Below are positions 7,785-39,385 of a stretch of 44,214 nt of DNA, one piece after another. This stretch comes from Verrucomicrobiota bacterium (GTDB lineage: Bacteria; Verrucomicrobiota; Verrucomicrobiia; Palsa-1439). Under the pieces are notes generated by a model. The model did not search any database. It was not told the origin of the DNA and saw only the letters and a list, made by a program, of their open reading frames with translations. The stretch's first letter is position 1, and each line of letters begins with the position of its first letter. The position numbers were made by a program, and so were the translations under genes. The stretch is from NCBI GenBank assembly GCA_016871575.1, contig VHCW01000034.1, positions 1 to 44,214 on the forward strand. The letters run 5' to 3'.

Positions 7785-9122
7785 ATGAAACGACGAGATG
7801 CTTTGAAAATAATGGCCACCGGGGTCGCCGGTGTGCTGGCGGGGCGACGGGTGAACGCGGAACCGGAGACGCCGGGCGAAGTCGCGTGGTCGCGCAAGGT
7901 GCCGGTGCGCTACGAGGCGGACGTGGCGGTGCTTGGCGGCGGCATCGCTGGCGTGTCGGCGGCGTGCGCGGCGGCGCGGTCGGGTGCAAAGGTGTTGCTG
8001 GTCGAGCGGTTCGCGATCACGGGAGGTGATCTGACCAGCGGCGGCGTGGCGTCGTTCTGTGGCGAGACAGCGGGGCAGGGGGAGGTCTTGGACGAGATCC
8101 TCACCGACATGGAGAAGTTCAAGACGATTGAGCCATACAAACCGTATCCGCAGGCTGACCATCGCGTCTTCGATCATCACATCCTCGCCATCGTGCTTCA
8201 GGAAATATTGCTGCGACGCAAGGTCAAGCTGCTGTTGCACACTCGTTTCGTGGACGTCCGACTCGTTGGCGGACGGATCACGGAGTGCATCGTCTGCGGT
8301 AAATCGGGACCGGAGGCATTGCGGGCAAAACAGTTCATTGACTGCACCGGCGATGCGGACGTTGCGCGCATGGCCGGGTTTGCGGTGATGAAAGGCCAGC
8401 CACACTCGCTGCCGATGTCCATGATGTCGTTTGTCCGTCACGTCGAGAAACAGGAACCGCAACTACCGGATGGCTGGTTCGAGCCGGTAAAGACGAAGGA
8501 AGCGTTGCCGATGACAAGCATCTGGCCGAACGGTCCCGGCAGCAACGCGCTCAAAATCAAGATACCGATGTTCGATGCCACCGATACGGAGTCGTTGACC
8601 GCCGCTGAGATTCGCGCGCGGCGTCGGACGCTGGAGGTGCTCGACTATTACCAACGCGTTCTGAAGAAAGGTTGGCGCTACGACGGGTGCTCGCCGCAGA
8701 TCGGAATTCGCGAGGGTGCGCGCATCACGGGTGACTATGTGTTGACGTTGAAAGACCTGCGCGCCGGGCGGGTGTTCGATGACGGTGTCGCGCGGGGCGT
8801 TTATTATCTCGACGGCCACAAACCTGATGACGACAAGCGGACCTACATTCTCAAAAAGAGCGAACTGAAAGTGCCGCCGTATCAGATTCCGTTGCGGAGT
8901 CTGATTGCGAAGGATGGCGTCAACCTGTTGATGGCGGGGCGCTGTTTCTCGGCGGAGCAACTTGCGTTGAGTTCGGCCCGTGTCAGCACGAGTTGCGCGA
9001 TGATGGGTCAGGCTGCCGGTATCGCCTCGGCGATGGCGACACAAAAACAAACCGACCCGCGCAAACTCGATCCGCAACTTGTGCGGCGCGTAGTCGAGGA
9101 ACGCGGAGGCAAATTGTCATGA
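7785..9122 (+). CDS. FAD-dependent oxidoreductase, Tat-type signal
   Basis: Flavoprotein of the FAD_oxidored family common in PVC sugar loci; its substrate is unknown. The start MKRRDALKIMATGVAG carries an RRxALK twin-arginine-like motif, so export in folded form is likely. The Rossmann dinucleotide motif is VLGGGIAGVSAACAAARSG at about residues 46-64, followed by LLVERF, and a second FAD-contact motif is FIDCTGDADVARMAG. The C-terminal part NLLMAGRCFSAEQLALSSAR is typical of the family, and the 445-residue length is normal. ATG 7785 is the only good start. The stop overlaps the next start (ATGA at 9119-9122), so it heads a tightly coupled operon with the FGE/sialidase, GH106, sulfatase and esterase genes. 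Confidence 0.85.
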   Translation: MKRRDALKIMATGVAGVLAGRRVNAEPETPGEVAWSRKVPVRYEADVAVLGGGIAGVSAACAAARSGAKVLLVERFAITGGDLTSGGVASFCGETAGQGEVLDEILTDMEKFKTIEPYKPYPQADHRVFDHHILAIVLQEILLRRKVKLLLHTRFVDVRLVGGRITECIVCGKSGPEALRAKQFIDCTGDADVARMAGFAVMKGQPHSLPMSMMSFVRHVEKQEPQLPDGWFEPVKTKEALPMTSIWPNGPGSNALKIKIPMFDATDTESLTAAEIRARRRTLEVLDYYQRVLKKGWRYDGCSPQIGIREGARITGDYVLTLKDLRAGRVFDDGVARGVYYLDGHKPDDDKRTYILKKSELKVPPYQIPLRSLIAKDGVNLLMAGRCFSAEQLALSSARVSTSCAMMGQAAGIASAMATQKQTDPRKLDPQLVRRVVEERGGKLS

Positions 9123-11176
9123 AGCATCTCGCAATGCTGTTGCTGCTCGCTGTCGCGGCGACCGGCGCTGCATCCGAAAGCATCGTGAACTCGCTCGGCA
9201 TGAAGTTTGTCCGCATCGAACCCGGCAGCTTCGAGATGGGCAGTGCAGATGGCGAGTTCGACGAGCGGCCCGTACATCGCGTCAACATCATGCGCCCGTT
9301 CTTCATGGCGACAACCGAAGTCAGCAACGCGCAATACGAGCAGTTCGATCCGGCCCACAGGGCGTTGCGCGGCAAACGCGGCATTTCCAAGGCTGACGAC
9401 GAACCGGTGGTCTTCGTGTCGTGGAATGATGCCGTGAAGTTCTGCGAGTGGCTCTCGAAGAAGGAAGGCAAACCGTATCGCCTGCCGACCGAGGCCGAAT
9501 GGGAATATGCCTGCCGCGCCGGAACAACCTCGGCGTTCAATTGTGGCGATACGCTGCCGGAGGAGGTTCGCCGGGAGCAGTTTGACAAGAGCACGTTCCA
9601 ACGCTGGTCACGCGGGCCGAGGCCGGTGAAGTTGACCGTCGGGACGATGACACCCAATGCGTGGGGACTACGCGAGATGCACGGCAATGTCGAGGAGTGG
9701 TGTCTCGACTGGCATGGAGCCTACGAACCGGGCGAGCAAACCGATCCGGTCGGGCGGGTCAGCGGCAATATGAGAATCACCCGCGGCGGCAGCCACAACA
9801 CCGGGACCAACTATCTGAGAAGCGCAAACCGGCAGGGAACTTTGCCGGACGATAAGCATTGGTTGATCGGTTTCCGCGTTGTCATGGGGGAATTGCCGGA
9901 AACGAAACCGCTGCCGCCGCCCGCGCCGGAACCGTGGGCGCGCGACGTGCCGCAAGTCAAGTTCGCGTGGACGCCGCCGGTGGATATGGCGCAGCCGTTC
10001 TTCGCCGCGCCCGAAGCATTCGTCATCATCCCGCCGAAATCCAACGGGCCGGTTTACGCAGACCACAATCATTGTCCTTCGATCACGTGGTGCGACAACG
10101 GCGACTTGTTGGCCGCGTGGTTTTCGACGAGTTGGAAGAGCGGCGGCGAGTCGGGGCGATGCCTGTCGGTGGTGGCCAGCCGCAAACGGGCGGGTCGCAA
10201 GCAGTGGGAGCCGGCGTCGGGCTTTTTCCTCGCACCGGACCGCAACCTGACCGGCACCGCGCTCTTCAACGACGGCCAAGGCACGCTGTATCATTTCAAC
10301 GGGCTCGGCGTAGCGGATGGCTGGGGCGACCTCGCCTTGGTGTTGCGCACCAGCCGCGATAACGGCGCTACCTGGTCGGCCCCGCGCTTGATCAATGACG
10401 AACACCGGTGGCGCAACCAGGTCATCAGCGGAACCTCCATCACAAAGGCCGGTATTCTCATGCAGCCGTGCGATGCCCATCCTTCCGGTAATGGGGGCAC
10501 GGCGATTTACGTCAGCCGCGATGGCGGCCAAACATGGACTGACCTTGGCGACGGAACTCTCAAGCCGGAGTTCAAAAGCGGCAACACCGGTGGCACCATT
10601 GCCGGCATTCATGCCGGTGTGGTGGAGTCGAAGGATGGCCGGTTGATGGCGCTCGGGCGCGGCGATACGATCGAGTCTCGGATGCCGGTGAGTGTTTCCG
10701 CGGACATGGGCAAGACGTGGACGTACTCGGCCAGCCCGTGGCCACCGATTGGCGGTGGCCAGCGGCTGGTGTTCATGCGTTTGAGAGAAGGCGCGTTGCT
10801 GTTTGTCTCGTTCACCGGCGACTACGACCCGAAGAAGTCGAAAGGGTTGGAGTTCACCGACGCCAGCGGGAAGACGTTTGTCGGTTATGGCCTGTTTGCC
10901 GCGCTCTCGTTTGATGACGGCGCGACCTGGCCTGTGCGCAAACTGCTGACGCCGCCGCGCGGCGCCGAATACAAAACGCAAGGTCATACGCCCAAGTTTC
11001 TCGCCGACGCGACGTACGCCGAGCCGCGCGGCTACCTAGCGGCCACCCAGTCCCCCGACGGCGTGATTCACTTGATCTCCAGCGGGCTGCACTACCAGTT
11101 CAACCTCGCGTGGCTGAAGACGTCCCCAACTCCGCCGGCCACTGCAGGCCGTTCGGCAAACTCCAAAGAACCATGA
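9119..11176 (+). CDS. Secreted fusion: FGE-like (SUMF1) domain plus sialidase-like BNR propeller
   Basis: ATG 9119 overlaps the upstream stop and begins a signal peptide (MKHLAMLLLLAVAATGAA); the frame is open further upstream, but that overlaps the FAD gene. Residues ~22-260 are a formylglycine-generating-enzyme-type domain (NSLGMKFVRIEPGSFEMGS, RLPTEAEWEYACRAG, MHGNVEEWCLDW, RGGSHNTGTNYLRSANR, GFRVVM). The active-site cysteine pair expected after RGGS is missing, so it is probably not a sulfatase-maturing enzyme. Residues ~300-680 form a propeller with four Asp boxes (SRDNGATW, SRDGGQTW, SADMGKTW, SFDDGATW). No FRIP-type sialidase arginine motif is evident, so the glycosidase activity is unproven. 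It is the second gene of the coupled operon and overlaps GH106 by ATGA. Confidence 0.82.
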   Translation: MKHLAMLLLLAVAATGAASESIVNSLGMKFVRIEPGSFEMGSADGEFDERPVHRVNIMRPFFMATTEVSNAQYEQFDPAHRALRGKRGISKADDEPVVFVSWNDAVKFCEWLSKKEGKPYRLPTEAEWEYACRAGTTSAFNCGDTLPEEVRREQFDKSTFQRWSRGPRPVKLTVGTMTPNAWGLREMHGNVEEWCLDWHGAYEPGEQTDPVGRVSGNMRITRGGSHNTGTNYLRSANRQGTLPDDKHWLIGFRVVMGELPETKPLPPPAPEPWARDVPQVKFAWTPPVDMAQPFFAAPEAFVIIPPKSNGPVYADHNHCPSITWCDNGDLLAAWFSTSWKSGGESGRCLSVVASRKRAGRKQWEPASGFFLAPDRNLTGTALFNDGQGTLYHFNGLGVADGWGDLALVLRTSRDNGATWSAPRLINDEHRWRNQVISGTSITKAGILMQPCDAHPSGNGGTAIYVSRDGGQTWTDLGDGTLKPEFKSGNTGGTIAGIHAGVVESKDGRLMALGRGDTIESRMPVSVSADMGKTWTYSASPWPPIGGGQRLVFMRLREGALLFVSFTGDYDPKKSKGLEFTDASGKTFVGYGLFAALSFDDGATWPVRKLLTPPRGAEYKTQGHTPKFLADATYAEPRGYLAATQSPDGVIHLISSGLHYQFNLAWLKTSPTPPATAGRSANSKEP

Positions 11177-28743: not shown

Positions 28744-29403
28744 ATGAGTGGCAACATTGCCGTCAATCTCAAGCCGAAAGTCATCCACGTGCGCGACCTG
28801 ACTGCGCGCTGTTACGTGTTGCGCGTGGAACGGCTCGGCATGAGCTTTCGCGCCGGGCAGTCCATCACGCTCGGTGTGCGGCGGATGCGCGTCAACCGCG
28901 AGTACACCATCTACTCCGGCGAACAGGACAACTTCTTCGACGTTCTCATCCGCGACATCCAAGACGGCATCGTCTCGCCGGCGTTGCGGCGGTGTGCACC
29001 GGGCGAGGAACTGGAGTGCGCGGGGCCGTACGGCTCGTTTGTGATCGAGAAACCGGAGGACACCTCGCGTCGCCACCTGTTCGTTGCCACGGGGACTGGC
29101 ATCGCGCCGTTCCACGCGATGGCGCGGACGCATCCAAATTTGAACTACCGGCTGCTTCACGGTGTCCGTTTGCTGGAGGAACGCTACGACATGGCCGACT
29201 ATGCGAACTACGTTGCCTGCGTCACCGGCGAACAAGTCGGCGATTTCAGAGGACGCGTGACCGATTATCTCAAGCAGCACCCGACTGATCCACAGACGAT
29301 CTGTTACCTCTGCGGCAACGGGAAGATGTTGTCCGAAGCCTACGACATCCTGCGCGGCCAGGGCGTTCCGAGCGACCAACTCCACGTGGAGGCGTTCTTT
29401 TGA
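28744..29403 (+). CDS. Ferredoxin/flavodoxin-NADP reductase-like flavoprotein
   Basis: Cytoplasmic oxidoreductase that should pass electrons between NAD(P)H, FAD and a carrier. The FAD-binding motif REYTIYSG (RxYS type) is near residue 57 and FDVLIRDIQDGIVSPAL precedes the flavin pocket (CAGPYGSF). The nucleotide motif ATGTGIAPFHAM is near 117, and the C-terminal CGNGKML and ...HVEAFF are typical of the family. At 219 residues it is compact and has no iron-sulfur domain. It overlaps the radical SAM start by one base (TGATG), which suggests it supplies electrons to that enzyme. Confidence 0.85.
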   Translation: MSGNIAVNLKPKVIHVRDLTARCYVLRVERLGMSFRAGQSITLGVRRMRVNREYTIYSGEQDNFFDVLIRDIQDGIVSPALRRCAPGEELECAGPYGSFVIEKPEDTSRRHLFVATGTGIAPFHAMARTHPNLNYRLLHGVRLLEERYDMADYANYVACVTGEQVGDFRGRVTDYLKQHPTDPQTICYLCGNGKMLSEAYDILRGQGVPSDQLHVEAFF

Positions 29404-30917
29404 TGCGTGTCGCCATCTCCTATCCGCCGATTGTGAACGACTTGGGCCAGGTCGCGATGGTTTCCCAGAATCGCAACGTCCAGTATTTCGTCGCGCCAAC
29501 GTATTTGTTACCGGTGGTTCACGCGCAAGCGGCGACGTGGCTGCGGGATCTCGGCCACGAAATCTATTGGGACGACGGCAACGCGCAGGGCAAATCGTTC
29601 GACCAATGGCACCGCGACCTGCTCGCGTGGAAACCGCAGATGGTCATCCTCGAAAGCACGACGCCGGTGATGAAGTTCTACTGGCGGTTGATCGAGCGCT
29701 TGAAGAAGGAAATGCCCGATTGCATCCTCGTGTTGACCGGCTACCACTCAATGCGGCGTCCCGACGAGACGATGAAAGAATGCCCTGTGGACATCGTGCT
29801 GCGAAGCAATCACGTTGACTTCGTGCTGCGCGAGCTGGTTCCGTTCATCGCGGGGCACCCCAATTGGCGGACGTCGTGCAAGGTGGACGGCCTCGAAATC
29901 CGCGAGAGCGCCGACCGCTGGCGCAGCACCGGCACCTTCAAGCAGGTCCAGCCGCTCGATTTGTCGCCCGATGTGGATCGCGACTTGGTGCAATGGAAGA
30001 GCTACGCCTACGAGAACGGCAACTACCTCCGCACGCCCGGCACCTACGCCACAAGCGTCATCCGCGATTGTACGTTCGGCAAGTGCATCTTCTGCCGGTA
30101 CAACGGCCCCGATCTCACGTTCTCGACGCGTTCCATCGAGAAAAGCCTCGACGAGTACGAACGGCTCATCGAACAATACGGCGTCCGTGAAATCTTCGAC
30201 GACTCCGGCGTCTGGTATCGCGGCCAGCAGGCTCGTCAGTTCTGCGAGGGGATCATCAAACGCGGCCTCCACAAGAGGGGTTGCTACTTCGGCATCAACA
30301 CACGTTTCGCCTACCTCGACGAGGAGACGATCCGGTTGATGGGCGAGGCGAACTTCCGTTTCGTCCTCCTTGGCCTCGAAGCGTGCGACGACGCGACGCT
30401 CGAACACCTCAACAAGGGCTATCACGTGGAGGACGTCCGCGAAAACCTCGAATGGTTCACCAAGTACGGCATGCACCCGCATCTCACCGTGATGGTCGGC
30501 TACTACTGGCAGACGCAGGAACAACTCGACAAGTCGGTCGCCACTGTCCGCGAACTCATGTTCAAGGGACTCGCCCGCACCTTACAGGTTACCCTCTGCA
30601 CGCCGCTCGATTTCACGCCGTACCACATGGAATGCATCGAGAAAGGCGTCCTGCTCACCAACGACTACAACGACTTCGACATGAGCAAACTCATTGTCAA
30701 GACGCCGATCCCGCACGAGCGTTACTACGAAGCCATCCGCCAGATGTACGGTGTCGCGTTCCATCCGAAGTTCATCCTGCGCCAGCTCGCGTTCCTCGCC
30801 TCCGGCCACGCGCGCGACTGGGAATTTCTTTTCAGCTACGGCTGGCGCGCCCTGCGACGCGTCCGTCAGCACGTGTTCAATCTGACGAAGGCGCGGGAAC
30901 TTACGCCACCAAAATGA
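29403..30917 (+). CDS. B12-binding-domain radical SAM protein with CX4CX2C motif
   Basis: Radical SAM enzyme of the cobalamin-type architecture. Residues ~1-150 form a Rossmann-like B12-domain (WLRDLGHEIYWDD, KPQMVILESTTPV, ILVLTGYHS), without the cobalt-ligating DxHxxG. The [4Fe-4S] motif is C223-TFGK-C228-IF-C231, i.e. CX4CX2C instead of the usual CX3CX2C. A TIM-barrel part follows (FGINTRFAYLDEETIRLMGE, RFVLLGLEACDD). Length is 504 residues. The start ATG 29403 overlaps the reductase stop and the stop overlaps the glycosyltransferase start, so the three are translated together. The substrate is probably a lipid or glycan intermediate made by the neighbouring transferases, but this is inference. 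Confidence 0.85.
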   Translation: MRVAISYPPIVNDLGQVAMVSQNRNVQYFVAPTYLLPVVHAQAATWLRDLGHEIYWDDGNAQGKSFDQWHRDLLAWKPQMVILESTTPVMKFYWRLIERLKKEMPDCILVLTGYHSMRRPDETMKECPVDIVLRSNHVDFVLRELVPFIAGHPNWRTSCKVDGLEIRESADRWRSTGTFKQVQPLDLSPDVDRDLVQWKSYAYENGNYLRTPGTYATSVIRDCTFGKCIFCRYNGPDLTFSTRSIEKSLDEYERLIEQYGVREIFDDSGVWYRGQQARQFCEGIIKRGLHKRGCYFGINTRFAYLDEETIRLMGEANFRFVLLGLEACDDATLEHLNKGYHVEDVRENLEWFTKYGMHPHLTVMVGYYWQTQEQLDKSVATVRELMFKGLARTLQVTLCTPLDFTPYHMECIEKGVLLTNDYNDFDMSKLIVKTPIPHERYYEAIRQMYGVAFHPKFILRQLAFLASGHARDWEFLFSYGWRALRRVRQHVFNLTKARELTPPK

Positions 30918-31906
30918 CGCCGCTGGTCTCGATCCTGATTGCGTATCCGGCGCCTTCGCCGTACCTCGACGAAGCGCTCGCCGGCATTGGCAAGCAGACT
31001 TTCCGGAACTTCGAGGTGATCTTGTTGCCCGACGATGCTTCGGGGCGGCAGTGGCCGGAATGGTGTGTTGAAACTCCGACTGGCAAACTCCGGCCGGCCG
31101 AGAAGCGGAACATCGGCATCGCCAAGGCGCGCGGCGAGATCGTCGCCTTCCTCGACGACGACGCTTGGCCGGTTGAGTTGTGGCTGGAGAAAGCAGTATC
31201 ACACTTTGCAAAGTGTGAAATCGCCGGCGTCGGCGGCCCCGGCGAGACGCCGCCGAATGATCCGTTCCTTGCCCAGATGAGCGGCCGCGTGTACGAGAAC
31301 GTCCTGGTGTCCGGCGGCTACCGGCACCGGTACCGCGCCGGGGCACCGGGCGAGACGGACGACTGGCCGAGCTGCAATTTCTTTGTGCGCACGGACGCCG
31401 TGCGGCTGTTGAAAGGGTTCCGCACCGACTACTGGCCGGGCGAAGACACGTACCTGTGCATGGAACTCACCAAGACGCTCGGCAAGCGGATCGTCTATGA
31501 GCCGGGGGCGCTGGTTTATCATCACCGGCGCGCGTTGTTCCTGCCGCACCTGCGCCAAATCGGGCGATACGGGTTGCATCGCGGTTATTTTGCCCGGCAT
31601 TTTCCCAGCACGTCGCTGCGGATTGGCTACATGATGCCGTCGTTGTTCGTGCTGGGGTTGGTGTTCGGCGGAGCGGGGGCGGTGTTACTGCCGTGGCTTC
31701 GATTGCCGTATGCGGCAGCAGTCGCGTTCTATTTGCTGGCGACACTGGTTGCCTCAGCGGCGAAATGTCCGTGGGTCTGGCTGTTGACGTGGCTCGGCGT
31801 GATGGCGACGCATGTGACCTACGGCGTGCGGTTCCTGATCGGTTACTTTGTCCAGCGCCTCCCCGGCGAGGTTCAGCGTTTCGACCACCCCTCGGAACGC
31901 AAATAG
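30914..31906 (+). CDS. Family 2 glycosyltransferase with C-terminal membrane helices
   Basis: Inverting GT-A transferase: PLVSILIAYPAPSPYLDEALAGI is the GT2 start, FEVILLPDDAS the nucleotide part, AFLDDDAWP the DxD metal motif near residue 80, and GEDTYLCMEL the ED acceptor/base motif. Three hydrophobic helices near the C-terminus place it at the membrane. ATG 30914 overlaps the radical SAM stop. A perfect 20-bp palindrome (31199-31218) is read in frame as SHFAKCE. The 3' end overlaps that of the convergent GT2 gene by 34 bases. Confidence 0.87.
   Translation: MTPLVSILIAYPAPSPYLDEALAGIGKQTFRNFEVILLPDDASGRQWPEWCVETPTGKLRPAEKRNIGIAKARGEIVAFLDDDAWPVELWLEKAVSHFAKCEIAGVGGPGETPPNDPFLAQMSGRVYENVLVSGGYRHRYRAGAPGETDDWPSCNFFVRTDAVRLLKGFRTDYWPGEDTYLCMELTKTLGKRIVYEPGALVYHHRRALFLPHLRQIGRYGLHRGYFARHFPSTSLRIGYMMPSLFVLGLVFGGAGAVLLPWLRLPYAAAVAFYLLATLVASAAKCPWVWLLTWLGVMATHVTYGVRFLIGYFVQRLPGEVQRFDHPSERK
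31199..31218. repeat. Perfect 20-bp palindrome in a glycosyltransferase gene
   Basis: TCACACTTTGCAAAGTGTGA reads identically on both strands and lies in frame within the segment where related GT2 proteins usually read FADPE. It may be a small palindromic repeat or chance. Confidence 0.6.
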
Positions 31907-32688
31907 ACCACTCCCACCAGAAACCGCAACCAGTACATCGCCAGCGCGTAGATCGGGTGTGCAAGGAAACGTTTCCATTTTCCGTTTTCGAGGAACACGC
32001 CGGCGAAACGATACCAGAAACCGAATTGCTTCCGCGTGATGGCGTCGCGCCCCCACTTGGCGAAGTAGGCGGAGAAGTTCGTGGCGTAATACGCCTTCTT
32101 CTTCACGTATCGTCCAAAATCGAACTCGCCTTCATTGTGTTCCAGGAATGTTTCGGCTGACACGAATCGCCCCTTCGACGCCAGACGGCGATCCAAGTCC
32201 CAATCTTCCGCCGCCCAGAGCGCGGTGTCGTAACCGCCCACATCGAGGAATGCCTGCCGGCGGATGCAGCGGACGGCGTCAATCGGGGTCGCGTCGTAAA
32301 ACGATCGCTCGAAGTCGCGGACTCGGGTCCAGAATCCTTCGCCGCGGACGCGCTCGGCGATGAAACAACCGGCGACGCCAGGGTCGCTCAGCGCAGTGGC
32401 GCAGGCGCGGAGCGCGTTGGGGGCAATCGTCATGTCGGCGTCGAGGAACAGCAGCAACTCGCCCTTGGCCTGCTGCGCGCCGAAGTTGCGCTGCGCCGAA
32501 CGTTCGGGGCCGAGTTGATGGACGGTGACGCCGTGGCGTTCGGCGACGGCTTTCGTGTCGTCGGTGGAGAAATTATCCACGACGATGATCTCGGTCTGGT
32601 CGGCGGGAAAGTCCTGCGCGCGGACGGCCTGGATGCAGGCGCCGATAAACTGCGCGGCATTTTTCGTTGGAATCACGACGCTAATCAT
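31873..32688 (-). CDS. Family 2 glycosyltransferase
   Basis: GT-A transferase: MISVVIPTKNAAQFIGACI, EIIVVDNFSTDDT, ERSAQRNFGAQQAKGELLLF, then LDADMTI (DxD) near residue 90 and AAEDWDLDRRLASKG (ED motif). Length is 271 residues; a hydrophobic stretch near the end (IYALAMYWLRFLVGVVYL) suggests membrane association. Start ATG 32688 is preferred to a longer upstream frame because MISVVIPT is the usual N-terminus. It is divergent from the GT4 gene across 40 bases and converges on the other GT2. Confidence 0.88.
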   Translation of the reverse strand: MISVVIPTKNAAQFIGACIQAVRAQDFPADQTEIIVVDNFSTDDTKAVAERHGVTVHQLGPERSAQRNFGAQQAKGELLLFLDADMTIAPNALRACATALSDPGVAGCFIAERVRGEGFWTRVRDFERSFYDATPIDAVRCIRRQAFLDVGGYDTALWAAEDWDLDRRLASKGRFVSAETFLEHNEGEFDFGRYVKKKAYYATNFSAYFAKWGRDAITRKQFGFWYRFAGVFLENGKWKRFLAHPIYALAMYWLRFLVGVVYLRSEGWSKR

Positions 32689-32728
32689 CTGGTTGAATGT
32701 CCGAGTGGGCGCATGATACACTTGGCGC

Positions 32729-33859
32729 GTGACCGAGCCAACCAGAAAGCACGGTGTGCTGCTGCTGGCGTTTACCTTTCCGCCGGATGTCGGCGGAGTG
32801 GAGACGCACCTGACGGATTTGGTCCGGGAAGTGAAGAAACGCGCGGATGTGCAGCTGTTCGTCTGCTCGTACAAACCGATCGTGACCGACGTGCGCGAGT
32901 ATCGTCGGCGCGAGACCGACGGCAACGTCGAGATTCGCCGGTGGTGGTGGTTTGGCGGGAACCTGTTCCGGAAACTGGAGCCGTGGCCGCTGTTGTTGTT
33001 CCTCTACGTGACGCCGTATTTCCTGTTGCGGGCGTTTCTGTTCATGCTTGGCCACGCCCGGCAGATTGACGTGATTCACGTTCACGGCCTGAACATGGCG
33101 TTTGTCGGCTGGCTGCTCGGCGCGATCTTCGGCAAACGGGTCGTGATGCAGACGCACGCGCTCTACTCGTTCAACCCGTCGTCGTTGTTCGGCAAGGTCG
33201 CGCGCTTCACGTTGTCGCGGATGAGCAAGATTCTCACGCTGTCCACCGCCTCGAAACAAGAGTTGGTGGCGCTCGGCGTGCCGGCAACATTGGTGGGCGA
33301 CTACCGGTACTGGATTGACCTCGACAAGTTCAGGCCGGTGGAGAAGGCGGGCGAGGGTATCACGGTGCTGTTCGTTGGGCGGCTCATTGACATCAAGGGC
33401 GCGGGCGTTGTGTGCGCGTTGGCGGAACGATTTCCTGAAGTGAAATTTGTCATTGTCGGCGACGGTCCCGACCGTCCGCGCGTTGAGGAGGCGGCGCGAC
33501 GACTGCCGAACGTTCAGTGCGCGGGCCTTGTCCGCAACACCGACCTGACGGCGTTTTATCAGTCGGCGGACGTGACGATCGTGCCGTCGCAGTATCCGGA
33601 AGGATTCGGGCGCGTGATTGCCGAGAGCCTGGCGTGCGGCGTGCCGGTCGTCGCGTCGAACATCGGCGGGATTCCCGATGCGATGGACGAGAGCGTCGGC
33701 ATGTTGTCGGCGCTGGACGTGGACAGTTTCGCGACGGCGTTGCGGCGGATGACGGAGGACAAGGGGTTGCGCGAACGTTGCCGGCGGAACGCGCGACCAT
33801 TTGCGGAGCGTCGGTTCAGCGCCGCGAACGCCGAGACGATATTGGGAGCCTACCGGTGA
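32729..33859 (+). CDS. Family 4 glycosyltransferase
   Basis: Retaining GT-B transferase: GVLLLAFTFPPDVGGVETHL is the GT4 start, DVIHVHGLN and VMQTHAL belong to the acceptor domain, VLFVGRLIDIKGAGVV opens the donor domain, and EGFGRVIAE is the EX7E motif followed by CGVPVVASNIGGIPD. Length is 376 residues. GTG 32729 is the best start available. It overlaps the second GT4 gene (GTGA). Likely builds a cell-surface polysaccharide or glycolipid. Confidence 0.88.
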   Translation: MTEPTRKHGVLLLAFTFPPDVGGVETHLTDLVREVKKRADVQLFVCSYKPIVTDVREYRRRETDGNVEIRRWWWFGGNLFRKLEPWPLLLFLYVTPYFLLRAFLFMLGHARQIDVIHVHGLNMAFVGWLLGAIFGKRVVMQTHALYSFNPSSLFGKVARFTLSRMSKILTLSTASKQELVALGVPATLVGDYRYWIDLDKFRPVEKAGEGITVLFVGRLIDIKGAGVVCALAERFPEVKFVIVGDGPDRPRVEEAARRLPNVQCAGLVRNTDLTAFYQSADVTIVPSQYPEGFGRVIAESLACGVPVVASNIGGIPDAMDESVGMLSALDVDSFATALRRMTEDKGLRERCRRNARPFAERRFSAANAETILGAYR

Positions 33860-35028
33860 AGATCGTTTTTCTGAACTCGGCGCACATTGACATCGGCGGC
33901 CTGTCTGGCGGCGAGACGATCATCATCAATCTGTTCCGCGAATGGCGGAAGATTCCGAATGTGCAGATCACGGTGTTGACCGGCACGCTCGGCAAGGAGA
34001 CGTGGCGCCGTCACGGGATCGAGGACGCGAACATCGTGGACGTGGCGCCGAGCCGCGAAGGCGAGAGCGCCTTTCGCCGGTACATCCTGAGGACGTTGTC
34101 GCTGATTCGCAACCCGAAGGTGCGGGCGGTGTTGGGGGAGGCGGACGCGGTCTATTCGGCGAGTGATTTCTGGCAGGATTCGGTGCCGGCGTTCTGTTTC
34201 AAGCGCAAATTTCCAAGGCTGCGGTGGATTGCGGGGTTTTATCTGTTTGCGCCGGTGCCGTTCTCGCGGGAGTCGCCGTATCGAGGGCGGCATTTCGTGC
34301 GCGGGTTGTTCTACTACCTGATGCAACGTCCTGTGTATTGGCTGGTGCGTCGGTGGGCGGACGTGGTGTATGTGACGAGCCAGCCCGATGTGAAACGGTT
34401 CGCGCCGAAGCCGGTGGTGGTGGTGCGCGGTGGCGTGGACACGACGGAAAGCGAACGCTACCTGTCAAGCGGCGCTGTCGTCCCGGTGGCGCAGCGGAAA
34501 TACGACGCGGTGTTCATGGGGCGCTTGCATTACCAGAAAGGCGCGTTGTTGCTGATGGACATCTGGCGAGAGGTCACAGCGAAACGGCCAGGGGCGAAGC
34601 TCGCCGTGATCGGACACGGCCCGCTGGAGGCGGAGATGCGGGCGAAGACGCGCGAGTTCGGGTTGGAATCGAACATCGAGATGCTGGGTTTCCTGACCGG
34701 CGCGCCGATGCATGAAGTCTTCAAGCAATCAAAGATCGTGCTGCACCCGGCGACGTACGATTCGGGTGGGATGGCGGCAGCGGAGGCGATGGCGTGGGGG
34801 CTGCCGGCGGTGAGCTTCGATCTGGAGGCGTTGCGGACGTACTATCCGAAAGGAATGTTGAAAGTGTCCCAATCCGGGGATGCGGCCGCCTTTGCCGGTG
34901 AAGTGCTGCGTCTCTTGGACGATTCGTCGCGCTATCGCGAGACCTCGGAGGCCGCGTTGGCGCTGATTCGTGAATCGTGGGAGTGGCGGAAACGCGCACA
35001 AGATATCTGGTCAAAGACGTCGCTGTGA
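33856..35028 (+). CDS. Family 4 glycosyltransferase with altered EX7E motif
   Basis: GT-B transferase starting at GTG 33856 (KIVFLNSAHIDIGGLSGGET), coupled to the previous GT4 gene. The donor domain starts AVFMGRLHYQKGALLLMDIW. In place of the first glutamate of EX7E there is aspartate (YDSGGMAAAEAMAWG, i.e. DX7E), which may change donor use. Length is 390 residues. The long Arg-rich middle (VPFSRESPYRGRHFVRGLFY) may be a membrane-surface patch. Converges on the VCBS gene. Confidence 0.85.
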   Translation: MKIVFLNSAHIDIGGLSGGETIIINLFREWRKIPNVQITVLTGTLGKETWRRHGIEDANIVDVAPSREGESAFRRYILRTLSLIRNPKVRAVLGEADAVYSASDFWQDSVPAFCFKRKFPRLRWIAGFYLFAPVPFSRESPYRGRHFVRGLFYYLMQRPVYWLVRRWADVVYVTSQPDVKRFAPKPVVVVRGGVDTTESERYLSSGAVVPVAQRKYDAVFMGRLHYQKGALLLMDIWREVTAKRPGAKLAVIGHGPLEAEMRAKTREFGLESNIEMLGFLTGAPMHEVFKQSKIVLHPATYDSGGMAAAEAMAWGLPAVSFDLEALRTYYPKGMLKVSQSGDAAAFAGEVLRLLDDSSRYRETSEAALALIRESWEWRKRAQDIWSKTSL

Positions 35029-35055: not shown

Positions 35056-37404
35056 TTACTTCGTGACGGTGTTCGCTCTTGGGTTTTGCAGGTAATAGAA
35101 CCGTCCATCCTCGGCGCCGCCGAGGAAATCGGGAATGCCGTCGCCGTTGAAGTCCACGACGGTCGGACTGACATCGTGGCCTTCGATGTTCTGCTCGGCC
35201 AACAATCCCATGTCTTGAAAGAACCATTTGCCGTCGCGCGCATCCACTTGCCGGAGAAATCGCGCGTTGGCCGCGTTCACCAAAATGTCGAGTTTCCCGT
35301 CGCCATCCCAGTCCACGATGCAGAGCTTGCGTCGCCCGCTTCTGCCGGCGATGCCGTGATTCAGTCGGATCGGGCCGGGCGCGGCCTCAATGATGTTGTT
35401 CCGGCTGTCGGTCACGGAGAAGTTGATGCCGTGAAAGACGCGCTGGGGTGGAAGCAGTACCAATTGATTGCCCCGTTTTTCTCGTTGAAAAAACGCAAGG
35501 TATCCCTCGTGGTCGAGCATCACCAGATCGGTCAATCCGTCCTTGTTCCAGTCCACGGCAAACGGCGTGGTGCGCCATTGAGTGAGCAACTCCTTGCCTT
35601 TCGGACGCAGCCAGCCGTACGCGAGTGTCGGCTGCGGGCCATCCCACTCGACTTTAATCGGCTGCGCCGCAGCGAGCTTCGGCGATTTGCGCGTGCCGAC
35701 GTTCTTAAACCAAACCACCTTACCCCAGATCGAGTTCACGACGAGATCTGGCAACTTGTCACCATCCCAATCCGCCACGCTCAATGTCGTGTAGCCCCAC
35801 TTTGCCTCGCACGGCCCCTGAATGCTGCCGTTCGGCCCGGCCATGATACGAATGACCTTGCCATCGGCTTGTAAACGTTTCGGCGCAGCCCACTTCGGTT
35901 TTTCGACGCCGGGGCCGCTGAGGTTCTCGAAGAACTCGATGTAACCGGCCGTGTTGCCGCTGATGATGTCCATGTCGCCGTCGCCATCCCAATCCACGCC
36001 GACCGGCGTCGCCAGCGCGCCGCACTTCAGATCGTCGGCTTCCTGCCGGAAATAACGCGGCGGGAGAAACACCGGCGTGCGGTCGCGCGCCAGCTTGCCG
36101 TTGTTCTCGATCAAAGCCACCCGGCCATCCTCGTCGCCGACGATCAAGTCCATGTCGCCATCCTTGTCCCAATCAATTGCTGTCGGCGTGATCATCTCCA
36201 AATCCATTCTAACGGCGAGACGTTTCCCGCTTGCATATTTCGGGGCAGTACGACTGCCGATGTTCTCGAAGTACGTGAACCCGTCGAGAAATTCACCGCA
36301 GAGCAGATCAAGATCGCCGTCGCCATCGAAGTCGGCGAAGTTCGGCGACGGCCAGCCAAACGTCTCCACCGGCTTGTCACCGGCCATGACTTTTACCGGC
36401 TCGGCATACTCGTTTCCAGTGTTGCGGATGAAATAGACAAACCCGCGCAATGGGCCGTTTGTCCAAACGCCTTTCGCATTGTAAGCGTTGTCCCAGCCGT
36501 ATTCCGTCCAATCGTCCGCGCCGACAATGATGTCGAGTTTGCCGTCACCGTCGTAGTCCACATACCGCCAGAAGTTGCCGCGCACCTTGTTCGGATGGAC
36601 ATTCGCCCGCAACGGCAGCTTGACGCCATTCTCCAAGCCGGTCTTGAGGAAGTCGGGATACTCGGTCGCCGGTGTCAGCACGCGCGGCTGGCCGTTGACG
36701 TGCGACACTTGCGCGAACTGCAAGCCTTTGCTGATGCGATGCCCCGGCGTGAAGATCGTTCCCGTGTTCTCGAAGAAATAAACGCCGTTGTATGGCTTGT
36801 CGGGGCAGTTCACGACAAGGTCAAGATCGCCGTCGCCGTCAAAATCCATCGGCAACGGAAACGCCCACAACCCGACGCCGAGGTCCACGACGAGGCCTGG
36901 GTGATTGTGCTTGAGCCGCTCCAATTTCGGCGGCGGCGCGATAAACACTCCATCGGGCGGCACGAGCACTATCATTCCCGCCCACGTGGTTTGCGGAACT
37001 GAAATTTCTTCGCCCGCTTTCAGTGTGCGCGAAAAGACCCGCATCTCCGCCTTCCCCTTGTCCGTGTAATGAAACTTCGCCTCCGCCACCGCATCCCATC
37101 CCGTGGGATTTTTTGTTGTCGTGGCGGCATACAAAACCGTGTCACGGCTGGCTTTCACGCGAATCTCAGACGGCACACCACCCGCGACCTGTGTGATGCG
37201 CCAGCCCCGGAACTTCTCCGGAACACCTTGCCAGACGTAGGGGCGGTTGGAGACCGCGCGCTCGCCGTCGGCCAGTCGCGTCAACGTCCAGCCGCGGCCT
37301 GCAATTATGATGTCGGGCGCGCTGATTTGATTCTCAGCGGCCTGTCCTGGCCAAGCGCAAGTTAGCCATGCCAAAACTGCCCACTTGATGATCTTCATGT
37401 TCAT
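35056..37404 (-). CDS. Secreted VCBS/FG-GAP beta-propeller protein
   Basis: Signal peptide (KWAVLAWLTCAWPGQA), a ~170-residue N-terminal beta domain, then at least nine calcium-binding-type repeats (DFDGDGDLDLVVN, DYDGDGKLDIIVG, DFDGDGDLDLLCG, DWDKDGDMDLIVG, DWDGDGDMDIISG, DWDGDKLPDLVVN, DWNKDGLTDLVML, DWDGDGKLDILVN, DFNGDGIPDFLGG), i.e. one or more propeller domains as in integrin-alpha-like and lectin-like proteins. Length is 782 residues. No catalytic domain is recognisable. The start overlaps the stop of the DHDPS-family gene (ATGA), so it is the last gene of the minus-strand operon. A carbohydrate-binding role is possible. Confidence 0.82.
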   Translation of the reverse strand: MNMKIIKWAVLAWLTCAWPGQAAENQISAPDIIIAGRGWTLTRLADGERAVSNRPYVWQGVPEKFRGWRITQVAGGVPSEIRVKASRDTVLYAATTTKNPTGWDAVAEAKFHYTDKGKAEMRVFSRTLKAGEEISVPQTTWAGMIVLVPPDGVFIAPPPKLERLKHNHPGLVVDLGVGLWAFPLPMDFDGDGDLDLVVNCPDKPYNGVYFFENTGTIFTPGHRISKGLQFAQVSHVNGQPRVLTPATEYPDFLKTGLENGVKLPLRANVHPNKVRGNFWRYVDYDGDGKLDIIVGADDWTEYGWDNAYNAKGVWTNGPLRGFVYFIRNTGNEYAEPVKVMAGDKPVETFGWPSPNFADFDGDGDLDLLCGEFLDGFTYFENIGSRTAPKYASGKRLAVRMDLEMITPTAIDWDKDGDMDLIVGDEDGRVALIENNGKLARDRTPVFLPPRYFRQEADDLKCGALATPVGVDWDGDGDMDIISGNTAGYIEFFENLSGPGVEKPKWAAPKRLQADGKVIRIMAGPNGSIQGPCEAKWGYTTLSVADWDGDKLPDLVVNSIWGKVVWFKNVGTRKSPKLAAAQPIKVEWDGPQPTLAYGWLRPKGKELLTQWRTTPFAVDWNKDGLTDLVMLDHEGYLAFFQREKRGNQLVLLPPQRVFHGINFSVTDSRNNIIEAAPGPIRLNHGIAGRSGRRKLCIVDWDGDGKLDILVNAANARFLRQVDARDGKWFFQDMGLLAEQNIEGHDVSPTVVDFNGDGIPDFLGGAEDGRFYYLQNPRANTVTK

Positions 37405-38333
37405 TCTCTTGTCTCCGCCGGTTTGGTTTGCGATTCCACTGTAAGGTAATGTTCGATTAATTCATTGGCAATGCGCAGGTTGTAAGAATCCCAGGCGAAT
37501 CCCGTCAAGCGCATCGTGCCGCTGGCAAAGATGCCCTTGCACACCAGCAGCCGTTTGAAGAAGGCGACCGATGTGGCGATTTCTTGGTTGGTAAAAGCCA
37601 GAATCGGCAGAAGTGTGTTGAAGATACTTCGCGCATTTTCTCGTCGGCCTGCCGCGTATTCACGCATGACTGCCGCGTAAACCCGAATCATCGCGCTCTC
37701 CGGGATCATCGCGTCAACGCCGCGGTCCAGCGCCTCGATCATTTGCGCCACGGCCCATCCCCCGGCGATGTAAAAGTCCGGGCCGAGCGCCTGCCGCGCC
37801 GCCGTGTACTTCGGGCCTGACGGCACAGTCTCAATCTTCACGCCGGCCAGTGTCGGCAACTTGTCGCGGAGCGCCGCGACGGTTTCGACCGGCAACCCCG
37901 GTCCGTTCCACTGCAAATCTTGGATGATCATCGGCAGGCGGCTCGAAGCAGCAACTCGTTGAAAATACTCGGATACCCGATCCGCACTGGCGTAGAGCGC
38001 GGGGGGAACTGCCACCAAGTAAGCGGCAGCGCCGACCGACTCCGCAAGCGCAGCCATCGCGCAGCAGATCTGCGGGTCATCAGCGGACGCCCCAACGATC
38101 AACGGAACGCGTCCTGCAATCGTTGCCGCGACCCGCCGCACCACCAGCCCGCGCTCCTTGCCATTCAACCACGCCACTTCGCTTGCCACCACCGGCGTCA
38201 GTAATCCGTTCACCCCGGCGGCAATGGCGTCTTCGACCAATCGCTCCAGGCTTGCCTCATCAAGGGCAAGGCGCTCGTCAAACGGTGTTTGCACGGCAGA
38301 ACAGATTCCCCGTGGAAGTTGATGGGAGGACAT
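37401..38333 (-). CDS. DHDPS/NAL-family aldolase, divergent paralog
   Basis: (beta/alpha)8 class I aldolase-family protein, 310 residues from ATG 38333 (MSSHQLPRGICSAVQTPFDE); a TTG nine bases upstream is also possible. The Schiff-base lysine is probably in AGVKIETVPSG. The other hallmarks are changed: TPVVASEV stands where GTTGE is expected and MIIQDLQWNG where YNxP is expected, so the usual catalytic tyrosine is missing. It may act on a different 2-keto acid or catalyse another reaction. Between it and the other family member lies a decayed sialidase fragment. Confidence 0.82.
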   Translation of the reverse strand: MSSHQLPRGICSAVQTPFDERLALDEASLERLVEDAIAAGVNGLLTPVVASEVAWLNGKERGLVVRRVAATIAGRVPLIVGASADDPQICCAMAALAESVGAAAYLVAVPPALYASADRVSEYFQRVAASSRLPMIIQDLQWNGPGLPVETVAALRDKLPTLAGVKIETVPSGPKYTAARQALGPDFYIAGGWAVAQMIEALDRGVDAMIPESAMIRVYAAVMREYAAGRRENARSIFNTLLPILAFTNQEIATSVAFFKRLLVCKGIFASGTMRLTGFAWDSYNLRIANELIEHYLTVESQTKPAETRE

Positions 38334-38338
38334 CGTGC

Positions 38339-38470
38339 TCAATCAGTTGTTTCCCACGGCAGTTGCTTCAACCAAGCAAGGTTGAAGACGTGGTGGTTCT
38401 TGCTGGTGATGATCTGGCTGAGCAACGTCACGGGTCTGAACGGCGGCAAGATAGCCGCTTTCCAATTCCG
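38339..38470 (-). pseudogene. C-terminal fragment of a sialidase-like gene
   Basis: Read on the minus strand, ESGYLAAVQTRD continues after a frame change as IITSKNHHVFNLAWLKQLPW and then a stop at 38341. This matches the end of sialidase-like proteins; the FGE/sialidase fusion here ends GYLAATQSPDG...HYQFNLAWLK. Only ~43 codons remain, with one frameshift and no start. It follows directly the stop of the upstream DHDPS-family gene. Confidence 0.65.
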
Positions 38471-38473
38471 TTC

Positions 38474-39385
38474 TCACGATGTCACTCCGAGTTCGGCCAG
38501 CAATTCGCGAACCTTCTGCCGTTCCGGTTCGCGGAACCGATGGAACGGCTCGGCCATGAAATCGTCGCACACGCCGAGCAGCGACAATGCGCATTTGATG
38601 CCTTTGATGATCGCCGATGGATGACGGCCAATGCGGTAGAGGTTGTCGCTGATGCGCATGACCTGCGCGTGCAGTTCGCGCGTGCGCGCGGTGTCGCCGG
38701 ACTGTGCGGCGCAGAACAACTCGACGTAGAGGCGCGGATGAACGTTGGCCCCGCCGCTGACGCCGCCGTGGCCGCCGGCGAAGACGGCATCGGCGAGCAT
38801 TTCTTCCGGGCCGATGAGCAGCGTCCAGTCGGGCCGGTGTTTCAGCAAACCGACAGCGCGATGGAAATAAATCATGTTCCCCGAACTGTCCTTGAGGCCG
38901 ATGATGCGCGGGTTGTCCATCGCGCGGCGGACGGTCTCCAACTCGAACGATACCTTCGTCAGCGCCGGCATGTTGTAGAGGAACAACGGCAACGGCAGTT
39001 CCGGCACGAGATGGTCGAGGTATTCCTGCAACTCCGGCTGTCCTTCCGGCAAATAATACGGCGGCGCGACCACGACCGCGTCCGCGCCCGCGTCAGCGGA
39101 CCAGCGGGCGACGTTCACCGACTCGATGAACGCTGTGTCCGTGATTCCCACGAGCACCGGGACGCGCCCGCCCACTTGCCGGCACGTCCGCTCGATGAGT
39201 TCCTTGCGAAGCCGGTAGCCGAGGCTTGGGCCTTCCCCGGTCGTGCCGAGGATGAACAGCCCGCTCACGCCGCCGGCGAGGATGTGTTCAATGAGCCGTT
39301 CGAGGCCAGGCAAGTCGAGTTTGTCGCGCCCGCACATGGGCGTGATCATGGGGGGGACGATTCCGTACAAGGGCAATGTCTTCAT
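38474..39385 (-). CDS. DHDPS/N-acetylneuraminate lyase-family aldolase
   Basis: Class I aldolase-family protein with all hallmarks: LGTTGEGPSL, the catalytic tyrosine in LYNMPALTK, and the Schiff-base lysine in IIGLKDSSGN. Length is 303 residues. The family includes dihydrodipicolinate synthase, N-acetylneuraminate lyase and several 2-keto-3-deoxy sugar acid aldolases or dehydratases. Since it lies in an operon with secreted sialidase-like proteins and not with lysine genes, a catabolic keto-acid substrate is likelier than lysine synthesis. The gap to the upstream gene is 7 bases. Confidence 0.88.
   Translation of the reverse strand: MKTLPLYGIVPPMITPMCGRDKLDLPGLERLIEHILAGGVSGLFILGTTGEGPSLGYRLRKELIERTCRQVGGRVPVLVGITDTAFIESVNVARWSADAGADAVVVAPPYYLPEGQPELQEYLDHLVPELPLPLFLYNMPALTKVSFELETVRRAMDNPRIIGLKDSSGNMIYFHRAVGLLKHRPDWTLLIGPEEMLADAVFAGGHGGVSGGANVHPRLYVELFCAAQSGDTARTRELHAQVMRISDNLYRIGRHPSAIIKGIKCALSLLGVCDDFMAEPFHRFREPERQKVRELLAELGVTS

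Follow-up and report, generated by a model that had tools for sequence, protein, structure and literature searches.

A six-gene cluster in the genome of a Verrucomicrobiota bacterium places a flavoprotein resembling ferredoxin--NADP reductase (FNR) beside a B12-type radical S-adenosylmethionine (SAM) enzyme and four glycosyltransferases, which raises the question of whether these genes form one pathway and whether the flavoprotein supplies electrons to its radical SAM neighbor. The window, i.e., the whole stretch of DNA that was analyzed, comprises 44,214 nt of contig VHCW01000034.1 (C34) from a 5.19-Mb genome (G000). An earlier note on this DNA, made from the letters alone, had proposed a self-contained pathway that modifies a membrane glycan or glycolipid and has its own electron donor. 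Our analysis confirmed the observation itself and partly supported its interpretation: the core module consists of three genes, not six (the FNR-like flavoprotein, the radical SAM enzyme, and one membrane glycosyltransferase), it is widespread, and no part of the earlier interpretation is better supported than the electron-donor idea.

Organization of the gene cluster

All six open reading frames (ORFs) were confirmed at positions 28744-35028, using simple ORF methods that make the gene starts approximate:

28744..29403, plus strand: FNR-like flavoprotein with FAD and NAD(P)H domains (PF00970, PF00175), lacking a 2Fe-2S motif; proposed to serve the radical SAM enzyme as its dedicated reductase
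29403..30917, plus strand: B12-type radical SAM enzyme, type 1, 504 aa (PF04055, 53.7 bits; CX4CX2C)
30914..31906, plus strand: membrane glycosyltransferase of family 2 (GT2), 330 aa, with C-terminal membrane helices (PF00535, PF13632); conserved partner
31873..32688, minus strand: accessory GT2, TIGR04283-like but below that model's cut-off (PF00535, 90 bits, scanned to 32685)
32729..33859, plus strand: accessory glycosyltransferase of family 4 (GT4; PF00534, 104.1 bits), its start, 32729 or 32756, being uncertain
33856..35028, plus strand: accessory GT4 (PF00534, 84.2 bits, scanned from 33859)

The first three genes overlap in an operon-like manner. The flavoprotein and radical SAM genes share TGATG, a one-base overlap in which the radical SAM gene starts with the ATG at 29403 and not with the in-frame TTG just upstream at 29400, and the radical SAM and membrane GT2 genes share ATGA, so that the GT2 start (30914) lies within the radical SAM stop. 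Both overlaps are as the earlier note had described them. As it stated, three more transferases follow, and both GT4 genes are read from the plus strand. The GT2 at 31873-32688, however, is encoded on the minus strand, converging on the membrane GT2, whose final 34 bp it overlaps. Since it is convergent, this gene falls outside the transcript of the flavoprotein, radical SAM, and membrane GT2 genes, and the plus-strand run of these three is the natural unit. Scans for promoters and terminators gave three promoter-like sites (1.2 expected) and 11 terminator-like sites (7.3 expected) and were not used.

Conservation of the three-gene core

Public genomes were searched with a profile built from five type-1 radical SAM proteins and with peptide patterns. 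The resulting 47 loci, two of which (L099 and L119) belong to one genome, are a sample, and match the type-1 protein at 60-78% identity by best segment. Their records are labeled Verrucomicrobia, Kiritimatiellae, Lentisphaerae, Nitrospinota, SAR324/Lambdaproteobacteria, Elusimicrobia, Spirochaetes, Patescibacteria, Hydrogenedentota, Gammaproteobacteria (Thiomargarita, Parabeggiatoa), other Proteobacteria, and Oligoflexia, with five labeled just "bacterium".

A flavoprotein homolog was found at 42 of the 47 loci. Adding the window makes 43 pairs, in all of which the flavoprotein and radical SAM genes share a strand; in 37 of these the gap is 150 bp or less. Two further loci (L093, L097) have a homolog elsewhere in the genome, and at the three where no homolog was found (L104, L120, L125) the radical SAM gene lies at a contig end. 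Homologs of the membrane GT2, counted by tblastn since ORF clustering left the window's GT2 unclustered owing to an over-long ORF, are local at 28 of the 47 loci. Of the 29 local copies, window included, 26 lie no farther than 2 kb away and 25 have the same orientation. When the 18 genomes behind the 19 loci without a local GT2 were searched, 11 carried the gene elsewhere. Distances within the three families are also correlated (radical SAM-FNR 0.80, 37 loci; radical SAM-GT2 0.81, 25 loci; FNR-GT2 0.79, 26 loci), none of 2000 permutations giving values as high. Because the domain calls are significant and the three genes are conserved across phyla, the grouping is not a product of chance. The earlier note had suggested a neighborhood survey of the CX4CX2C protein and had named a lack of conservation as the outcome that would speak against it; conservation is what the survey found. 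Its six-gene pathway was too broad, as clusters of the minus-strand GT2, the first GT4, and the second GT4 occur at 20, 3, and 7 of 48 loci, respectively (window included), and the flavoprotein, radical SAM, and GT2 core is what stands.

Neighboring genes at the loci include those for nucleotide diphosphate (NDP)-sugar enzymes, transferases, and flippases. Among viral contigs, 41 stretches matched a pattern and none encodes a relative; the plasmid search gave 13 records with identity of at most 28.2%.

Co-occurrence of the radical SAM and GT2 families

Compared with 288 genomes of the phylum, the window's radical SAM protein has matches in 44 at E<=1e-20 and in 38 at E<=1e-50. Five of these 38 carry type 1 (the window itself, or proteins at 67-78% identity), and the remaining 33 have type 2 alone (~40%); two genomes, G101 and G285, carry both. 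Trees support type 1 at 100/100, type 2 at 93/66, and both together against BchE, HpnJ, and others at 100/99, with long branches that leave the outer placement unsure; an attempt to place the family among BchE, HpnJ, and others was abandoned, the branches being too long to trust. C399 is present in 35 of 35 type-1 rows of the alignment and in none of 13 type-2 rows, most of those shown retaining PYPGT in that stretch. A difference in reaction or substrate between the two types is therefore probable. Gene order in G285 is GT2-GT2 fusion, FNR, type 1, type 2, and at three loci (L039, L041, L046) the type-2 gene is overlapped by a GT2-GT2 fusion (the genes of locus L035 were read from an ORF listing).

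Across the 288 genomes, the GT2 family (E<=1e-40) occurs in 38 and the radical SAM family (E<=1e-50) in 38, with 37 in common (Fisher p 2e-44, relatedness ignored). The exceptions are G201 and G056, the latter with a weak GT2 match (E 7.9e-43). The count excluded six genomes whose radical SAM matches were weaker (best E 4e-27 to 7e-21), all of which lack the GT2. Of the 37 shared genomes, 24 were checked, and in 16 the two genes lie on separate contigs; therefore, the link between them is not just one of neighborhood. Results were similar among 77 Nitrospinota genomes, where the radical SAM family (E<=1e-50) is in 13, the GT2 (E<=1e-30) in 12, and both in 12; the exception is G352, whose radical SAM gene lies close to the end of its contig, and locus L113, apparently the same contig by position, has a cut piece of GT2. 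The glycan context proposed in the earlier note is thus upheld by GT2 co-occurrence and by the glycan genes that neighbor the loci. For mostly uncultured bacteria, Nitrospinota and Patescibacteria included, this co-occurrence defines a candidate glycan-modification pathway.

The membrane GT2 itself scores above cut-off for PF00535 and PF13632, and its model (predicted local distance difference test score, pLDDT, 93.1) resembles hyaluronan and cellulose synthases and PcManGT (hyaluronan synthase: Z 22.6, 298 residues aligned, 3.7 A). Hydrophobic C-terminal stretches with predicted helices fit a GT-A fold followed by membrane helices. Identity with mycofactocin MftF was rejected (TIGR03965, 88.6 versus a cut-off of 280). 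The minus-strand GT2 reaches 99.3 bits against the TIGR04283 cut-off of 182.

The flavoprotein as a putative electron donor

With PF00970 (FAD_binding_6, 42.3 bits) and PF00175 (NAD_binding_1, 27 bits) both above cut-off, the flavoprotein has the FAD and NAD domains and binding motifs of the ferredoxin--NADP reductase-like class. Among 40 homologs longer than 190 aa, RxY[ST]xYS is present in 39, GxG[IV]AP in 40, and a C-terminal FF in 40, and a 2Fe-2S cysteine pattern was found in none. The protein reaches the cut-off of none of the 19 NCBIfam models listed, and identity with a named reductase such as BenC (the best, 79.5 versus 430), MmoC, or PRK10926 ferredoxin reductase (NF008178, 42.6 versus 390) was rejected.

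Relatives at E<=1e-12 occur at 73 places in 39 of the 288 phylum genomes, all five type-1 genomes included. Exclusive association with type-1 radical SAM genes is refuted, as only 5 of these 39 genomes carry type 1. Each of the 13 closest flavoprotein genes in the phylum (E<=1.1e-49) is followed immediately, on its own strand, by a radical SAM gene, which is type 1 in four cases and MiaB-type in nine; in the fifth type-1 genome, G201, the flavoprotein is more diverged (E 1.6e-41) and also stands beside type 1. Five of the MiaB-type proteins were scanned, each scoring above the cut-off of 251 for the MiaB/RimO model TIGR00089 (354.6-393.1 bits), and the other four genes were matched to a scanned one by tblastn at 80-81% identity. 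The arrangement in which a MiaB-type methylthiotransferase gene comes immediately after an FNR-like gene, found in nine phylum genomes in all, is seen at:

L177:6122-8276
L178:4390-6561
L179:7253-9349
L180:1177-3298
L181:6736-8796
L219:2467-4493

Fourteen of the 73 places are linked to these radical SAM genes, and 15 of the remaining 59 were examined, three of which adjoin an ApbE-like gene. A flavoprotein tree, which took in 8 of the 9 MiaB-linked proteins and two duplicated genomes (L141=L109, L034=L088), splits the type-1 and MiaB-linked flavoproteins from five at weaker places with support of 100/100, and each partner group forms one side of a branch (85/91 and 86/54).

Since flavoproteins of this kind lie beside two different radical SAM classes, an electron donor fits better than a reductase of one product, and the flavoprotein probably feeds electrons to the radical SAM enzyme, as its gene pairing suggests. 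The earlier proposal that the cluster brings its own donor is thereby strengthened. A dedicated reductase is plausible, since class B methylation depends on an external supply of electrons to the cobalamin as well as to the cluster. Shared ferredoxin or flavodoxin systems serve many radical SAM enzymes, and FNR/ferredoxin and Fpr/flavodoxin are general-purpose NAD(P)H flavoprotein systems that feed them. The apicoplast Fd/FNR system of Plasmodium is said to serve iron-sulfur proteins (PMC8844926). The present flavoprotein gene differs from these in its fixed place next to a single radical SAM gene. The natural donors of many radical SAM enzymes are often obscure, and a reductase locked beside two radical SAM classes offers a donor and an acceptor that can be tested together and might be put to use in vitro. 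A search of open-licence papers found no description of the trio or of the FNR-MiaB pair, which is weak evidence as subscription papers lay mostly outside its scope.

In one Spirochaete genome (L230:3465-5576 and 8061-10001), the flavoprotein is on a different contig from the type-1 gene and, by eye, near a QueE-like ORF and a radical SAM-like CX4CX2C ORF.

Domains and fold of the radical SAM protein

Membership of the radical SAM superfamily is supported by PF04055 at 53.7 bits against a cut-off of 29.5. The cluster motif, read directly from the window as C-TFGK-C-IF-C, is CX4CX2C, as the earlier note had it, and not CX3CX2C, and is kept in the window and in all 46 related loci that reach it, L127 being cut. 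The motif is also seen in queuine lyase and is therefore not unique to this family. In the AlphaFold2 model (pLDDT 88.8), the closest fold is AprD4 (Z 30.5, root-mean-square deviation 3.1, 423 residues aligned, 16% identity), followed by OxsB, MgmA, CysS, and TsrM (Z 25.4, 25.1, 24.9, and 24.8), and the predicted structure aligns with OxsB, TsrM, and CysS across most of its length. AprD4 was also the top match in a profile search of PDB sequences (E 6.1e-11). No named family was reached: BchE (TIGR02026), the best NCBIfam model, gave 114.6 bits against a cut-off of 481.35; HpnJ (TIGR03471), the second best, gave 94.2 against 577.6; and AprD4 (NF033070), despite the similar fold, gave 26.2 against 500.

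Two other radical SAM genes were noted. Contig C150 of the window's genome (L063, L064) carries another HpnJ-like gene (265 bits, under cut-off), and a further B12-binding radical SAM gene lies at L084:16051-17748, within the glycan island of that locus, in a cluster of 13 ORFs from 7 loci.

Proposed mechanism and alternatives

We consider it reasonably likely that the three genes together serve to alter a sugar of a membrane-bound glycan, and from the observed gene order, domain content, motif, conservation, and co-occurrence we infer the following biochemical steps. The membrane GT2, judging by its fold and membrane helices, would add a sugar to a membrane-bound acceptor. The flavoprotein, as its pairing suggests, would pass NAD(P)H electrons via FAD to the radical SAM protein, either directly or by a small carrier. 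The radical SAM protein would then cleave SAM at a [4Fe-4S] cluster held by CX4CX2C, and the resulting 5'-deoxyadenosyl radical would take a hydrogen from a sugar carbon, which would thereby be altered. A sugar is the most likely substrate, to judge from the modeled fold, whose closest match is the sugar dehydratase AprD4, and from the glycan-gene neighbors. For the chemistry, cobalamin-dependent C-methylation is a serious candidate at somewhat less than even confidence, and the same may be said of AprD4-like deoxygenation or HpnJ-like rearrangement; some other reaction seems rather unlikely. The gentamicin C-methyltransferase GenD1 is reported to be a CX4CX2C, cobalamin enzyme that methylates a sugar carbon (PMC4340712). 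It differs in its soluble pseudotrisaccharide substrate and is likened here by description, not sequence. BchE is likewise a cobalamin radical SAM enzyme and gave the best NCBIfam score, but long branches separate it in the tree; it can be driven by ferredoxin, ferredoxin reductase, and NADPH, according to PMC13142503. More speculatively, and with confidence just short of even, we propose that the small FNR-like protein represents a family of flavoproteins dedicated to activating two radical SAM classes (this B12-type glycan enzyme and the MiaB-type methylthiotransferases); with the GT2 and type 1, it would form a mobile module putting one and the same undescribed, radical-made sugar modification on surface glycans in many phyla, Patescibacteria included.

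Several results weigh against this interpretation. In the window's protein, the B12-binding domain PF02310 scores 21.7 bits, below its cut-off of 32.1, although 46 of 48 family members match it at E<=0.01 (best 2.5e-10). At 3 of the 42 loci with a flavoprotein, 831, 1546, and 1959 bp of other sequence lie between it and the radical SAM gene, and the 15 weaker flavoprotein places examined have no MiaB or type-1 gene nearby, other radical SAM classes not having been searched for. In 7 of the 18 genomes searched for lack of a local GT2, none was found. All 33 genomes with type 2 alone, which have the GT2 partner family, are without the flavoprotein at E<=1e-12; therefore, the flavoprotein is not needed by the whole radical SAM family. 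Most locus records are labeled as metagenome-assembled genomes, the Bifidobacterium and Actinomycetales labels are doubtful and may be binning errors, and the permutation figures, like the Fisher value, ignore relatedness.

The alternative that survives best, although still unlikely, is deoxygenation as in apramycin biosynthesis, where the radical SAM enzyme would dehydrate a sugar diol and the flavoprotein would reduce the ketone rather than an iron-sulfur cluster. AprD4 leads both the fold and the PDB profile comparisons, and the two systems have in common a B12-like domain with a radical SAM fold, a sugar substrate, and a partner NAD(P)H reductase, AprD3, which, as described in PMC5461906, acts with AprD4 on the sugar as an NADPH-dependent reductase in deoxygenation, as opposed to the FNR-like flavoprotein here. 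Set against this are the low identity and the AprD4 model score, the motif, which in AprD4 was read as C-x3-C-x3-C (C-PYP-C-RFY-C) in place of CX4CX2C, and the setting of an antibiotic pathway as opposed to a membrane glycan. The same flavoprotein subfamily also adjoins MiaB-type genes, and MiaB produces no ketone.

Modification of a lipid carrier or acyl chain instead of a sugar, with the GT2 acting afterwards, appears quite improbable. The B12 radical SAM lipid-biosynthesis model TIGR04072 does match at 49.4 bits, but its cut-off is 360; and although the GT2-GT2 fusion partner, in its N-terminal half, has matches in the PDB to sugar transferases of the undecaprenyl-phosphate (E 1.3e-15) and dolichol-phosphate (E 8.8e-14) kinds, none of ten neighbor-cluster representatives scanned by Pfam is a lipid gene (two had no match).

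A second HpnI/HpnJ-type system for hopanoid head groups is very unlikely. It would account for the rank of HpnJ among the NCBIfam models and for the gene arrangement, as hpnJ, a BchE/HpnJ-like radical SAM gene, overlaps a GT2 gene (hpnI), and the window's genome has a squalene-hopene-cyclase-like match of 469 bits. According to PMC5462960, HpnI, HpnK, and HpnJ act in bacteriohopanetetrol (BHT) cyclitol ether synthesis. The HpnJ cut-off was far from reached, however, and no FNR-like gene is annotated beside the hpnJ compared, the FAD-binding protein there being ~2.6 kb off on the other strand. Of 14 type-1 draft genomes searched, 6 (three of these 6 being Patescibacteria) have no match to SQHop_cyclase_C and two more have only weak ones; therefore, the hopanoid pathway is not general, and hopanoids are unlikely as a general substrate.

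Accidental neighbors without shared function in a variable glycan island, which the patchy accessory transferases would fit, are highly improbable given the constancy of the flavoprotein at the loci and the co-occurrence of GT2 and radical SAM genes even when unlinked.

Adjacent genes and other observations

Elsewhere in the window, the upstream region (2538-26676) holds likely genes for pectin/rhamnogalacturonan use (Bac_rhamnosid6H, GH106, pectate lyase 2, GH88, KduI, a major facilitator superfamily (MFS) transporter, and others), among which one protein at 9119-11176 joins a sulfatase-modifying-factor (FGE) domain to BNR repeats. Just past the cluster, on the minus strand, are a gene for an FG-GAP repeat protein (35056-37404) and two adjacent genes resembling dihydrodipicolinate synthase (DHDPS; 37401-39385), the first recognized by Pfam and the second by eye alone.

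In other genomes, type-2 genes at L044-L058 (e.g., L045:6454-10450) lie near a DUF481 cluster (10 loci) and a secretin cluster (4 loci), one representative of each having been scanned. LysM and TPR genes are found near the GT2-GT2 fusion at L190. Beside the fusion in L032, a first identification of nuo genes was rejected, as Pfam instead gives GatC, amidase, and GatB proteins and a T2SSE ATPase; these gatCAB-like/T2SSE clusters are partly common to L041 and L062.

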